Assembly (NCBI GenBank): GCA_003170825.1
Contig: PMYL01000041.1
Span: 107,280 to 171,279, forward strand
Length of the DNA: 64,000 nt
Direction of reading: 5' to 3'
Origin: Acidobacteriaceae bacterium
GTDB taxonomy: Bacteria; Acidobacteriota; Terriglobia; Terriglobales; Acidobacteriaceae
Made by a program: the position numbers and the translations under genes. Below, piece by piece: positions 1 through 38,502 of this stretch (the stretch's first letter is position 1; each line of letters begins with the position of its first letter). A model generated the notes under the pieces. It had not been told where the DNA came from. It ran no database searches and saw only the letters and a list, made by a program, of their open reading frames with translations.

Positions 1-470
1 GCGCAAAGTGTCGAGCGCGGAGCAATCCGTGCGTGGCATGGAGAGCCAAGTGTCGAGCACGGAGCAATCCGTGACCGGCGCGAGCGCTAAGTGTCGAGTA
101 TGGAGCAATCCATAACCGGCGCGGCGCGCTAAGGGTTGAGCACCGAGCAATCGGTGTCCAGCACAGGGCGTACGTGTCGAGCACGGAGATATCCGTCCTC
201 CGGCGCGGAACGCCAAGTGTCGAGCACGGAGCAATCCGCGTCCGGTGCGAGTGCAATGTGTCGAGCGCGGAGATATCCGAGTCCGGTGCGGCGCGCTAAG
301 TGTTGAGCACGGAGATATCCGTGCCCAGCACAGGGCATTCAGTGTAAAACACGGAGCAATCCGTGCTGAGCGCAGAGTGCCAAGTGTCAGCCACGGAGCT
401 ATCCGTGACCGGGGCGGAGTGCGAAGCGTTGGAGCCGGCAACTCGGGACGTTTTTTGCCCTGAATCTTCT
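1..470. repeat. Tandem ~42-bp dyad/hairpin array
   Basis: Ten consecutive units, with an eleventh decayed one near 424-445. Each contains a 6-bp inverted repeat around a 4-nt centre, consensus CACGGA-GCAA-TCCGTG. Dyads lie at about 16, 58, 99, 141, 182, 225, 266, 308, 350 and 392, spacings 41-43. The centre is GCAA in six units, GATA in three, GCTA in one. At 99-114 the arms are TATGGA/TCCATA and at 141-156 CACCGA/TCGGTG, so three base pairs changed on both sides. All three forward frames meet stops or shift phase because spacing is not constant, so it is not a coding repeat. The array may continue left of the window. It could form RNA hairpins or be a set of protein-binding dyads; function unknown. 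Confidence 0.9.
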
Positions 471-806
471 CGCGTCACTGAGCGATGGTTGGTTCGGGCA
501 GCTTATTCTGATTCTCCGCGGCTTCCCCAGAATCCGGAAGGATCTCCCCCAAAGCTGTCATCCTGAGCGAAGGTCGCCGCGGCGACCGAGTCGAAGGACC
601 TGCTTTTCGTGATTCTGGTAGGCCAGGGTTTTGACCCTGGCATCAACCCTCACCCCTCTTCGCCATCCGCCGGGTGCCCCATCCTCGCCGCGTGTCGCCG
701 AGGCGACTTTTTGCGGCTAGGGTGGGATACCTATAACTACAGTCCTTTTTTGTCTTTTACTGTCTTCGAAATGATGGGCGCCTATAGGGAAACCACACCC
801 CGCAAT
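471..806. other. Intergenic stretch without a supported gene
   Basis: Between the dyad array and the NTF2-like gene. It holds one copy of a dispersed repeat (557-603) and fragments such as GGGTGGGATACC that look like decayed repeat words. The open frame across 609-1382 on the plus strand is the antisense of the NTF2-like gene and has no coding features of its own. Confidence 0.6.
557..603. repeat. Dispersed intergenic repeat (GTCATCCTGAGCG...AAGGACCTGC type)
   Basis: About 47 bp starting GTCATCCTGAGCG and ending GTCGAAGGACCTGC, with a GGTCGCCGCGGCGACC palindrome in the middle. A near-identical copy lies at 38455-38502. Its palindromic core and dispersal suggest a REP-like non-autonomous repeat. 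Confidence 0.8.
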
Positions 807-1262
807 TCAGGATGTTTTTGTAGGTCCCCTCTTCGCCATCCGCCGCCGGATCGGATCGTTGTCCGCGTACACCCGCCACTCCGCCACCTTGCCGTCCTCG
901 ATCGACGCCCGGAACGCCGCCGGCGTCTTCCACCGGTTCTCCGCCTTCAACTGCCCGTCAGCCGCATACGTCCCCTGCGCCACTCCCAGCATCACCACCA
1001 CCTCTTGAGCAGTCGGGGTCCCCGGCGACAGGTCTTCGTCGCTGGGGTGACAGTACGTCTCCTCCACGGTAATCGTGTAGTCCGGAACCATGAGGAAGTA
1101 CGCGGCCCACGCCGCCTGCATCTTCTCCCGGCCCTCGGCCGCATTGCCCAGCGAGTCCACAAACCGGTTCCCCTCGGTCATCAACTCCGCCAGAGCATCC
1201 ACATCCCGCAGGTTGATCGCCCGCACAAACCCCCGCGCCACAGATTCCGCCGATTCGCTCAT
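807..1262 (-). CDS. NTF2-like / SnoaL-fold protein
   Basis: 151 aa. The N-terminus (VARGFVRAINLRDVDALAEL) followed by LMTEGNRFVDSLG, an AAWAAYFLMVPDYTI segment and a late AEWRVYADNDPIR strand is the usual SnoaL/NTF2-like pattern, a cone-shaped α+β fold used by small-molecule cyclases, isomerases and many uncharacterised proteins. The substrate cannot be told. Residues 71-84 (CHPSDEDLSPGTPT) are encoded by a copy of a dispersed palindromic repeat and probably form an extra loop between two strands. It stands alone, on the opposite strand from the next gene. Confidence 0.8.
   Translation of the reverse strand: MSESAESVARGFVRAINLRDVDALAELMTEGNRFVDSLGNAAEGREKMQAAWAAYFLMVPDYTITVEETYCHPSDEDLSPGTPTAQEVVVMLGVAQGTYAADGQLKAENRWKTPAAFRASIEDGKVAEWRVYADNDPIRRRMAKRGPTKTS
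1015..1049. repeat. Palindromic repeat inside the NTF2-like CDS
   Basis: GGGGTCCCCGGCGACA...GTCGCTGGGGTG. The same arms and centre recur in non-coding DNA at 38587-38621, and a related inverted copy is at 45418-45455. Here it lies in frame within the gene and encodes residues ~72-83. Confidence 0.75.
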
Positions 1263-1420
1263 ACCGCCATTGTACCCAAGACGCCGGGCACACCAGACCT
1301 CGATTTTGCGACCTGGGAAGCCACAAATCTCAACCCAGGGAGGGCCGGAAAGTCCCCTTTCGCACCGTTTGGGCCGAAATGACCGTAGATCAAGCGGTCG
1401 ATTTGGTCTAAGATATTTGT

Positions 1421-1663
1421 ATGGGCCGCTCCGTATACATCACGACTCCGATCCCCACCCTCGACGAGGTGGGGAAGAGATTGAAGATGAGCAAGGCGCG
1501 CCAGAAGCGCCTCATTGAAATTGTCAGAGGCAGCGGGAACGGTCAGTTGTCGGAATGTCACCGGGCTGCGTCGGGTTCGCTTGACGGACGCTTTCGCAAC
1601 GGAAGCGGCGCAACGAAGGATTCTGCGCACAGCAAGACGAGCAAGCATGCCGCCGCCAGTTAG
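1421..1663 (+). CDS. Small protein of unknown function, first gene of a two-gene unit
   Basis: 80 aa, starting MGRSVYITTPIPTLDEVGKR. The first ~35 residues look structured (a possible helix-turn-helix-like KRLKMSKARQKRLIEIV). The C-terminal half is polar and low-complexity. It overlaps the following gene by 17 nt (that gene starts at 1647), so the two are probably translated together. I do not recognise a named family. A small DNA-binding or antitoxin-like role is possible but only inferred from size and coupling. Confidence 0.55.
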   Translation: MGRSVYITTPIPTLDEVGKRLKMSKARQKRLIEIVRGSGNGQLSECHRAASGSLDGRFRNGSGATKDSAHSKTSKHAAAS

Positions 1664-2252
1664 GCCAAACGCCGTATTCGTAAACATCCCTTACGACGAA
1701 GGCTTTCGCAGCCTTTATCTTGCGTACATCGTCGGTTTGACTCACCTTGGCCTTGAACCTCGCGCCACCCTCGGAATTCCCGGAGGCGAGCGCAGGCTTG
1801 ATCGCATCTTGGCGCTCATTCAAAGTTGCCGGTACTCCATTCACGATCTCTCTCGGGTACAGTTGGATCGAAATCCGCCTCGCACCCCGCGCTTTAATAT
1901 GCCCTTCGAACTGGGCCTCACCGTGACCTGGGCCAAGCTCAACCCCAGCCAGCACAGTTGGTTTGTCTTTGAAACCAAGGCGCGCAGAGTTCAGAAGTCT
2001 TTGAGCGATTTGGATGGCAGCGATCCGAACATCCATGACGGCACGGTGGAAGGCGTCATGGGGGAAATCTGCAACGCATTTGTTCGTAGTAGGGCGGCGC
2101 GGCCCAATGTTCCCGAAATGATGCGGACCTATCGTGGACTGTCGCGTAAGTTGAACGCGATTACAGCCGCGGCCGGCGCCAGGAGCGTCTTCGAGGCGCG
2201 CATCTTCGATGATCTCTGCTTTGCTGCCAAAGCCGCCATAAGCCATGCGTGA
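1647..2252 (+). CDS. Unassigned protein, possible TIR/deoxyribosyltransferase-like fold
   Basis: 201 aa from the ATG at 1647; the frame is open further upstream, but the conserved-looking part begins with AVFVNIPYDEGFRSLYLAYI. Then come LGIPGGERRLDRILALIQSC, SIHDLSRVQ, PRFNMPFELGLTV and SWFVFETKARRVQKSLSDL. An N-terminal β-strand, a 'hDLS' strand end and a conserved FELG glutamate resemble nucleoside-2'-deoxyribosyltransferase/TIR-type NAD-processing folds; that is an inference from pattern only. The 17-nt overlap with the small upstream gene suggests a functional pair. Confidence 0.6.
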   Translation: MPPPVRPNAVFVNIPYDEGFRSLYLAYIVGLTHLGLEPRATLGIPGGERRLDRILALIQSCRYSIHDLSRVQLDRNPPRTPRFNMPFELGLTVTWAKLNPSQHSWFVFETKARRVQKSLSDLDGSDPNIHDGTVEGVMGEICNAFVRSRAARPNVPEMMRTYRGLSRKLNAITAAAGARSVFEARIFDDLCFAAKAAISHA

Positions 2253-12595: not shown

Positions 12596-15500
12596 ATGAG
12601 GTCTTTCTTGAATCGGAAGGTGAAGCTAGCATTCGGATTTGCGATGTTGACCCTGTTATTCTTGGGGTCCTTCTCCTATCGCTGGATGGTCATCTCCGAT
12701 GAAAGCGGCCGCTGGGTGCGCCACACCCACGAAGTGATCGAGAATATTCAGGATTTGGCCCTGGCCCTGGGGAGTGTCAGGTCCGGCAGCCGTGGATTTG
12801 CCCTGACAGGCCAGGAATCCGATCTTGCAACCTACCGCGCCGACGCATCGAGAGCAGCGCAGGATTTGGCAGCCATTCGCAATCAAACGGCGGATAATCC
12901 CAATCAGCAGCGCCATTTTCCCGACATCGAAATCCTTGCAGCCGAGAGAATCCAGTACGCGGATATGATCGTAAGCCTGCGCCGCACCCAGGGGCTGGCG
13001 GCGGCAGTAGCCGCCATGGAGGGAGGGAGGGACCAGGAGACAACGGATGAATTTCAAGCGCTGGCGGGCAAGATGCAGGACGAGGAACTGCGATTGTTGG
13101 CGCTGCGTGACGCGGAAACTGAGCGTGACCGGAACCAGACCAGGACAATTCTGATCATTGGAACCCTGCTGGGGATTTTGGTCGCCGGCCTTGCAGCCTG
13201 GTCCGCGCTGCGCGACAGCAGCAAGCGCACCGCCGCCGAGGAAGCTCTCCAGCAAAGCGAAGAGAAATACCGGATGTTGCTGAACGGAGTGCAGGACTTT
13301 GCGATCTTCATGTTGGACCCGCATGGCCAGGTTGCCAGTTGGAGCGCCGTCGCGGAGCGAATCATGGGATACGCCGCGGATCAGATTATCGGCCACAATT
13401 ACTCCTGCCTTTTTCTTCCGGAAGATATCAAGCAGGGCAGGCCGGAAGAGGTGCTCCGAATAGCCGCCGCAAGCGGCCGGCACGACGAATTCGGCACGCG
13501 CGTGCGGAGAGACGGCACTGAGTTTCTGGCCAGCGACACCTTCATCGCGTTGCGCGACCTATCTGGAAACCTGCGCGGGTTTTCCGAGATCTGCCGCGAT
13601 CTGAGCGAGCAGAAGGAATCGGAGGCAAGGTACCGCGGGCTGCTGGAGGCGGCTCCGGATGGGATGGTGGTGGTGAACCAGGACGGGAAGATCGTCCTGT
13701 TGAACGCCCAGGCGGAGAAACAGTTCGGATACCTCCGCGATGAACTCATAGGCCGGAAGGTAAAGGACATCATTCCGGAGGGCTTTGCGGAGCGGCTGAT
13801 CGCCGACGGAACCCGGACTGCTGCCGAAGCGCTGGCGCAGCAGATCGGCACAGGGATTGAGCTCAACGGACGGCGGGAGGATGGAAGCGAGTTTCCCATC
13901 GAGATCATGCTGAGCCCGCTGGAGAGCGCCGAGGGAATCCTGGTGACGGCGGCCATCCGCGACATCACCACGCGCAAGGACGCGGAGAAGCATCTGGCGC
14001 AGATGGAGGGAAGGTATCGTGGCCTCCTGGAGGCGGCTCCGGATGGAATGGTGGTGGTAAACCAGGGCGGGGAGATCGTCCTGCTGAACGCCCAGGCGGA
14101 GAAACAGTTCGGGTACCGCCGCGATGAGCTCCTGGGCCAGAAGGTAAAGAGCATCATCCCGGAGGGCTTTGCGGAGCGGCTGATCGCCGACGGAACCCGG
14201 ACTGCTGCCGAAACGCTGGCGCAGCAGATAGGCACGGGCATTGAGCTCAACGGGCGGCGGAAGGATGGAAGCGAGTTTCCCATCGAGATCATGCTGAGCC
14301 CGCTGGAGAGCGCCGAGGGAATCCTGGTGACGGCGGCCATCCGCGACATCACCACGCGCAAGGACGCGGAGAAGCATCTGGCCCAGATGGAGGGAAGGTA
14401 TCGTGGCCTTCTGGAGGCGGCTCCGGATGGAATGGTGGTGGTAAACCAGGGCGGGGAGATCGTCCTGTTGAACGCCCAGGCGGAGAAACAGTTCGGCTAC
14501 CGGCGCGATGAGCTCCTGGGCCAGAAGGTAAAGAGCATCATTCCGGTGGGCTTTGCGGAGCGGCTGATCGCCGACGCTCTTCGCACCACGGCTGAGGCGC
14601 TGGCGCAGCAGATCGGCACGGGGATTGAGCTGCACGGGCGGCGCAAGGACGGAACCGTGTTTCCCATCGAGATCATGCTCAGCCCGCTGGAGAGCGCCGA
14701 GGGAATCCTGGTGACGGCGGCCATCCGCGACATCAGCGAACGAAAGCAACTGGCGCGTCAGTTGCACCAGAGCCAGAAGCTGGAAGCGATCGGCCAATTG
14801 ACGGGTGGAATCGCTCACGATTTCAACAATCTGCTCGGTGTCATCATTGGGAATCTGGATTTGCTCGACCGCCTGGTCGCCGGCAACGCAGCGGCCGTCA
14901 AGCGAGTACAAACCGCGCAGAAGGCCGCTGCGCGCGGCGCGGACATCACGCGGCGCCTGCTCGTTTTTTCCAGCAATGAGGAGCTGAAGCCGTCGGTTGT
15001 CCGGCTCAGTGATTCGATTCAGAACACGATCCAGCTGGCTGCCAGCGCGCTTGGCGTGGAGATCAAGATCACCACGCACCTCGACGAGTCAGTGCCGCTG
15101 CTCTTTGTTGACTCTGCGGGGCTTGAAAGCGCGCTGCTCAATCTGATGGTAAATGCGCGGGATGCGATGCCCAAGGGGGGCTCCATCGTTATCAGCTCGC
15201 AGGTGAAGAGCCTTGAAGACAGCCATCCCACCGTACAGGCAGGCGACTTGAAAGCAGGCCGTTACGTTTGTGTGTCGGTAACGGATACAGGGCACGGCAT
15301 GTCGCGACAGACCCTGGAGCGCGCCTTTGAGCCATTCTTTACCACCAAGCCGCGCAGCAAGGGCACGGGCCTGGGCTTGGCCATGGTCTACGGCTTCGTG
15401 AAGCAGTCCGGCGGCGCCGTCCGCCTCTACAGCGAACTTGGTCAGGGGACCACGGTGTCGTTTTATCTGCCCCTGGCAGCGGATCTTTCGCACCCTGTTC

Positions 15501-38400: not shown

Positions 38401-38502
38401 GTCATCCTGAGCGATCAATAATGGACTGTCATCCTGAGCGATCAATAACGGACTGTCATCCTGAGCGGAGGTCGCCGCGGCGACCGGAGTCGAAGGACCT
38501 GC
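38401..38502. repeat. Two partial and one full copy of the GTCATCCTGAGCG repeat
   Basis: Starts at 38401, 38428 and 38455, 27 bp apart. The first two end after GCGATCAATAA(T/C)GGACT; the third runs to AAGGACCTGC and matches 557-603. Confidence 0.85.

Follow-up and report, generated by a model that had tools for sequence, protein, structure and literature searches.

A probable stand-alone gene for a large structured RNA built from tandem hairpins in Acidobacteriaceae of peat and permafrost soils

The left edge of the analysed DNA (the window, 64,000 nt of an Acidobacteriaceae genome) lies within a tandem array of hairpins, which is part of what is probably a stand-alone gene for a large structured non-coding RNA comprising a promoter-like site, a closing helix (P1), a leader and a crown of hairpins whose linkers may pair in a nested way. 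The pairing within the hairpins, the strand and the homology of the arrays were established by comparison of seven genomes. The gene is about 570 nt long in the genome under study and 820–910 nt in its relatives. A description of this RNA was not found in the open-access PMC literature, and the gene, from peat and permafrost soil bacteria, is apparently undescribed so far.

A first-pass annotation of the window had reported ten dyads at 41–43-base spacing and placed the left end of the array outside the window. All ten dyads are present, and extension to the left gave 11 whole units of about 42 nt at a pitch of 41–43 bases; unit 1 starts at L007:17246, 35 bases left of window base 1, and the array start called by TRF lies 49–50 bases left of the same base, with periods of 42, 83 and 167. 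A 19-base core gave seven matches in the window at ≤3 mismatches, against 0.04 expected by chance. The dyad itself proved to be real but to represent only the inner half of a hairpin. Each unit consists of a 32-nt hairpin followed by a 9–11-nt linker. In the hairpin the inner 6-bp stem carries the 4-nt loop and is separated by a 2-by-2 internal loop from a 6-bp outer stem (GTGTYG with CRGCRC, flanking the inner dyad); some of the stems are imperfect. The GCAA loops that had been described occur in six of the ten in-window units, while three others carry GATA and one GCTA. The array is single-copy in its genome, where, of the six matches returned at E ≤ 1, the five outside the array span just 19–27 bases. 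The features of the gene are as follows (window coordinates unless stated otherwise):

1..425, plus strand: hairpin array, in-window part (units 2–11 and linkers), supported by covariation; unit 1 and linker 0 precede the window
8..39, plus strand: unit 2 hairpin, inner stem CGCGGA/TCCGTG, loop GCAA, outer stem GTGTCG/TGGCAT
50..81, plus strand: unit 3 hairpin, loop GCAA
91..122, plus strand: unit 4 hairpin, TATGGA/TCCATA, loop GCAA
133..164, plus strand: unit 5 hairpin, CACCGA/TCGGTG, loop GCAA
165..216, plus strand: linkers 5 (165–173) and 6 (206–216), proposed pairing GGCGT/ACGCC around unit 6
174..206, plus strand: unit 6 hairpin, loop GATA, 3′ arm with one additional base
217..248, plus strand: unit 7 hairpin, loop GCAA
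258..289, plus strand: unit 8 hairpin, loop GATA
300..331, plus strand: unit 9 hairpin, loop GATA
332..383, plus strand: linkers 9 (332–341) and 10 (374–383), proposed pairing GGCATT/AGTGCC around unit 10
342..373, plus strand: unit 10 hairpin, loop GCAA
384..415, plus strand: unit 11 hairpin, loop GCTA
416..425, plus strand: linker 11 (the last), proposed pairing with linker 0 (GCACT/AGTGC), closing the crown
426..436, plus strand: putative additional stalk helix, 3′ strand, partner GGCCCCAGC left of the window, from the MFE fold only
437..448, plus strand: P1 terminal helix, 3′ strand GGCAACTCGGGA, 12 bp with TTCCGGGTTGCT at the predicted 5′ end
451..456, plus strand: T-run 3′ of P1, possible transcript end, with no site in the terminator scan
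L007:17163-17174, plus strand, left of the window: P1 5′ strand TTCCGGGTTGCT, pairing with GGCAACTCGGGA

Relatives of the array were found in six other genomes of the same genus, so that the gene was detected by BLAST in 7 of 80 genus genomes including its own. A covariance model of the leader recovered the same seven copies (7 of 79 genus genomes at E ≤ 1.7e-15); five further matches of this model in the genus (E 0.027–0.91) were judged to be chance by their hairpin spacing and, for one of them, by reading, with no array visible. The six relatives are Acidobacteriaceae metagenome assemblies, five from bog or palsa and one named Terracidiphilus sp. (Occallatibacter in the NCBI taxonomy). One copy with hairpins of different sequence, in genome G062, keeps the leader, the ends and the unit plan with stems of the GGAGCC/GGCNCC type at a 37–38-nt pitch.

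Two comparisons of the units carry the case for pairing. Ninety-five of the 98 units of the 42-nt type were compared, with G003 unit 15 and G007 units 4 and 15 left out owing to broken register; the mean column identity of these hairpins was 73%. Paired states made up 85.1% of 1140 cells, compared with 75.5 after shuffling, and cells changed on both sides numbered 110 vs. 35.3 ± 6.5; in neither case was any of 500 shuffles as high. Registers slid out of place gave 27–61 double-changed cells. Further pair types were likewise in excess (36 vs. 25.1 shuffled, 0/500 as high). The three paired changes that had been pointed out in unit 4 (TATGGA/TCCATA, window 91) and unit 5 (CACCGA/TCGGTG, window 133) were confirmed, and the suggestion that changes in the arms are paired above chance holds across the set. 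Because shuffling takes no account of relatedness, we also compared orthologous units (G003/G007 and G023/G030), which showed 30 pair-keeping double changes vs. 3–12 in slid controls, along with 26 pair-breaking double changes, the register of some of these units having been fixed by pitch.

The same units also revealed the strand. In all 98 units G-T (G-U in RNA) occupied 145 and A-C 25 of 1176 cells, a ratio of 5.8 to 1 as compared with 0.4–2.6 to 1 in slid registers. The commonest form of outer pair 4 is U-G (54/95), and without this pair G-U still stood at 91 vs. 23 for A-C. In a DNA dyad G-T and A-C are one mismatch viewed from either strand; the excess of G-U over A-C therefore indicates that the plus-strand transcript is selected, and not a protein-bound DNA dyad. 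The plus strand folded better than the minus strand in all seven genomes, with MFE z-scores of −9.4 to −17.2 and −3.2 to −7.2, respectively (20 shuffles each). The loops are GNRA in 77 and GATA in 13 of the 98 units, and GNRA in 17 of the 21 units of G062 after a local re-centring that favours G...A loops. The proposal that a transcript would form a string of small, mostly GNRA-capped hairpins is thus favoured by covariation, G-U excess and plus-strand folding. A protein-coding explanation had been considered unlikely, in agreement with the shifts of the spacing between 41 and 43 and with the lack of any plus-strand frame open across the array; on the minus strand one frame is open for 159 aa in the genome under study and breaks into several ORFs in G030. 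The array is also not a CRISPR, as was stated before: the hairpins are diverged, the linkers are short and related, and no cas gene was present among the few neighbours scanned.

Upstream of the array, the sequence TTGACA, followed by CATAGTT and then by CATTCCGGGTTG, is common to all seven copies. In the genome under study it includes a promoter-like site, TTGACA-N18-CATAGT, with 10 of 12 consensus matches and an 18-base spacer, and a promoter scan gave one site vs. 0.2 expected. Transcription would start at this conserved promoter, just 5′ of the P1 5′ strand. P1 is seen in the sequences as a conserved complementarity of 10–12 bp between the predicted RNA ends in all six genomes for which both ends are available (the copy in G003 is cut off by the contig end); in G062 one G-U has turned into G-C. 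The RNA would thus be closed by P1 joining its 5′ and 3′ ends and would carry a stem-loop leader (P2-P3). The leader has a stem-loop with a UUCG or GCAA loop in six of seven copies; an alignment of six rows showed no significant covariation, with a double change in 1 of 15 pairs, and P2 was 63.5% paired in this partly misaligned alignment. At the 3′ end a T-run follows P1 in four of six complete copies and is absent in G007 and G062; G007 has a hairpin and T-run further downstream, and G062 neither. A terminator scan found no terminator-like site.

Unit counts were 11 in the genome under study, 17 in G030, G003, G007 and G067, 19 in G023 and 21 in G062, that is, odd in all seven genomes, although G003 is without its 3′ end and the counts come from related genomes and are not independent draws. 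Hairpins were located mechanically, weak units in G023, G003, G007, G067 and G062 were placed by hand using the pitch, and spurious extra hairpin matches were excluded. Unit 10 of the own array has a clear counterpart in the penultimate unit of G030, G023 and G067, and the difference between G023 and G030 amounts to a single inserted pair of units. Unit 13 of G003 (L023:5201-5280) carries two tetraloop hairpins under a single outer stem, giving 18 hairpins in 17 units; such a form may be an intermediate in the gaining of units.

In two-genome consensus folds the linkers pair with each other, and linker 0 pairs with the last linker in both orthologous comparisons; linker pairing was less clear in the consensus fold of the own genome with G067. 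A matching of linkers only left none of the 18 linkers of G030 or the 20 of G023 without a partner, and the two topologies agree apart from the one inserted pair. The single-genome optimum equals the comparative topology in G030 and G023 (9/9 shared pairs) and does not fully do so in the own genome, G003 and G007. We also permuted the linker order, a test which presupposes no chosen topology. The fraction of permuted orders as good as the natural one was 0.10 in the own genome, 0.063 in G030, 0/300 in G023, 0.28 in G003, 0.023 in G007, 0.003 in G067 and 0.08 in G062; pairing is therefore not significant singly in the own genome, G030, G003 and G062, while pooling gave a Fisher p of 1.3e-5 over the seven genomes if independent, which, being related, they are not. 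Nested matchings compared with random ones gave fractions of 0 to 0.038, values biased favourably because the matchings were derived from the same sequences. Double changes in linkers that were kept in the orthologue numbered three in G003/G007 (null 0.03 and 0.01) and one in G023/G030 (null 0.22 and 0.17). A simple dimer model, in which linker pairs enclose every even hairpin, reached a pooled p of 0.048 (0.13 without the own genome) and was replaced by nested pairing after the genome-pair consensus folds. Complete nesting is possible only if the linkers are even in number, and the units are then odd in number; nested linker pairing, which would explain the odd counts, is supported but not proven. 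Under such pairing the crown would gain or lose units in even numbers; it comprises 11–21 hairpins, most of them capped by a GNRA loop and all built from an inner and an outer stem.

We searched for the gene beyond the genus in draws of family, order and class genomes that include some genus members and in which strongly diverged versions would be missed. Outside the genus none was recognised in the family (250), order (397) or class (399) draws. The leader model at E ≤ 0.01 detected only the own genome among the 250 of the family. The exact leader pattern matched 5 of 397 genomes of the order draw (own, G030, G062, G003 and G251), the match in G251 being rejected as chance on reading, and a two-unit pattern matched 7 of 399 genomes of the class draw, with eight matches in the own genome and one in each of the six others. 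A filter for runs of hairpins was insensitive, with scores of 5 for the own array, 3 for G030 and 1 for G062, and would miss G062-like arrays. A search of a genome contig collection gave 11 matches. Six of these correspond to the loci already known, L047 showed no array on reading, and the other four (L048, L050, L052 and L054) belong to other phyla by title. The plasmids searched gave no match. Viral contigs gave no leader match; six had a single unit-pair match each, and with these two patterns no copy of the gene was recognised in the viral collection. One viral contig, L127 (IMGVR_UViG_3300025590_000531), combines its unit-pair match with three GNRA hairpins in a run on the opposite strand (filter score 3), and this match is probably due to chance.

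The genomic neighbourhood was compared among the seven loci. In six of the seven genomes the RNA gene is preceded by an ABC-2 permease gene of the same orientation, which is directly adjacent (about 290–300 nt) in the own genome, G003 and G067 and more distant in G007, G023 and G030; in G062 the two genes are on separate contigs. In nine relatives that lack the RNA gene (G064, G010, G070, G016, G065, G021, G101, G103 and G004), the 507–700 nt read 3′ of the permease contained no array. On a permease tree of 30 genomes the distribution of the RNA gene requires five gains or losses, which, together with its presence in 7 of 80 genomes, indicates that the gene is dispensable. No downstream neighbour is common to the seven genomes, the own one being a SnoaL-like (SnoaL_2) gene on the minus strand. 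Among the loci compared no conserved neighbour was found besides the permease, and no conserved regulator gene adjoins the array; no partner is thus in sight. This context suggests that the RNA acts in trans and that its gene has been lost or transferred repeatedly.

Several known RNAs resemble the one described here. A scan of window 1-2000 against Rfam at E ≤ 1 gave only Clostridiales-1 (22.2 bits vs. 48 needed), and a scan of five loci (44,400 bases) at E ≤ 0.5 only sX6 (21.6 vs. 40), outside the array. CsrB and RsmZ are protein-sponge RNAs with many similar hairpins, and the sites of CsrA and RsmE are GGA in a loop. As one RNA with many similar hairpins they provide a working model for a multivalent sponge; here, however, GGA is paired with TCC in the apical stem of the 42-nt type and is not at the apex in G062. 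GOLLD, ROOL and OLE, like the present RNA, are several hundred nucleotides in size. They also share with it covarying stems, weak sequence conservation and a largely open function (PMC12286853), and three of the large RNAs solved there form RNA-only assemblies. In contrast, the present RNA is chromosomal, has a body that is a tandem array of one hairpin unit in variable copy number, and has no Rfam match. ToxI/antiQ antitoxins of type III also have tandem repeats of a few dozen nucleotides in a non-coding RNA, yet these are 2.8–5.5 pseudoknot repeats in the systems quoted in PMC5086642, as opposed to 11–21 diverged units, which fold as two-part hairpins with covariation. STAXI likewise has a structured unit in tandem, often with stable tetraloops (UUCG), but is a pseudoknot in two or three copies near DNA-handling genes (PMC2864571); the present RNA has simple hairpins, 11–21 times, closed by P1. 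The same paper lists Acido-1 and Acido-Lenti-1 (RF01686, RF01687), which are acidobacterial non-coding RNA candidates as well and gave no match in the Rfam scans.

As to function, our tentative first choice is a trans-acting, multivalent RNA platform: the repeated hairpins would bind a single kind of partner protein many times over and thereby sequester or cluster it. The reason is that numerous near-equivalent hairpins persist although their number varies. An RNA-only assembly was ranked close behind, because the shape is kept and the sequence of the stems is not. In this case loop-receptor or A-minor contacts of the GNRA hairpins, either inside one RNA or from one copy to another, would yield a compact or multimeric particle; GOLLD, ROOL and OLE show that natural large RNAs behave in this way (PMC12286853). 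Stems change wholesale between G062 and the others while loops remain mostly GNRA and the P1 closure is kept, which suggests that shape is conserved more than a sequence recognised by protein; on the other hand, the 13 GATA loops of 98 are not GNRA, and we consider an RNA-only particle conceivable but rather doubtful. A DNA element, with dyads on one helix face for cooperative binding of a regulator, had been proposed from the 41–43-base pitch and the dyad symmetry. It does not agree with the 37–38 pitch of G062, the strong G-T over A-C asymmetry, the better folding of the plus strand in 7/7 genomes, U-G as the commonest form of outer pair 4 (54/95) or the lack of a conserved regulator gene adjoining the array, and is very improbable.

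Hardly more credible is a type III antitoxin-like RNA, its tandem repeats processed by a linked toxin. The promoter, the T-run and repeats of similar length (34–36 nt in the published systems, PMC5086642) would suit it. Yet no linked toxin was recognised when the downstream genes of the seven loci were compared and the four own neighbours scanned with PADLOC (0 matches), the loci have no downstream gene in common, with the own SnoaL-like gene on the opposite strand, and nested linker pairing would impede cutting into monomers. Slightly better placed, though still improbable, is a dispersed or selfish repeat (REP, BIME or BOX-like) which merely forms hairpins, perhaps on a small mobile cassette: its patchy presence (7/80) and an exact 22-bp direct repeat that flanks the own gene are in its favour, but each genome has one locus in the searches made, the gene lies 3′ of the same permease in 6/7, its promoter, leader and closing helix are conserved, and the 22-bp repeat occurs in no fetched locus of other genomes.

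Three-dimensional structures are available for few large structured bacterial RNAs. The present RNA is assembled from a repeated module, its size varying within one genus while the ends and leader are fixed. If the predicted fold holds, it would offer a natural test case for the evolution of large RNAs by duplication when pairing has to be maintained. It would also be a candidate multivalent scaffold in soil bacteria whose RNAs have received little study. Speculatively, the RNA may be a new kind of modular closed crown made from one repeated hairpin with all linkers inter-paired, in which units can be gained and lost only in even steps, so that their number is odd, and stem sequences are free to change as long as the GNRA loops and the shape persist. 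It would then be a natural size-tunable scaffold or cage arising by tandem duplication.

Some further sequences were observed near the gene and elsewhere in the window. The exact 22-bp direct repeat flanking the own RNA gene lies at L007:17008-17029 and window 727-748 (C7:107007-107028 and 108006-108027 on the contig scale), 999 bp apart; no further copy is present in the own genome at ≤2 mismatches, its exact form is absent from the fetched loci of other genomes, and it could be a trace of insertion or duplication. A 201-aa frame at window 1647-2249, near the RNA gene, had no Pfam or PADLOC match at E ≤ 0.01. Repeats of the GTCATCCTGAGCGA type form a 27-bp tandem at window 38401-38467, with a single similar stretch at about 555-600, near the RNA gene. 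At window 13621-14735 a 384-bp tandem repeat is present in 2.9 copies with 92% matches, and its unit reads like a repeated PAS-type sensor domain.
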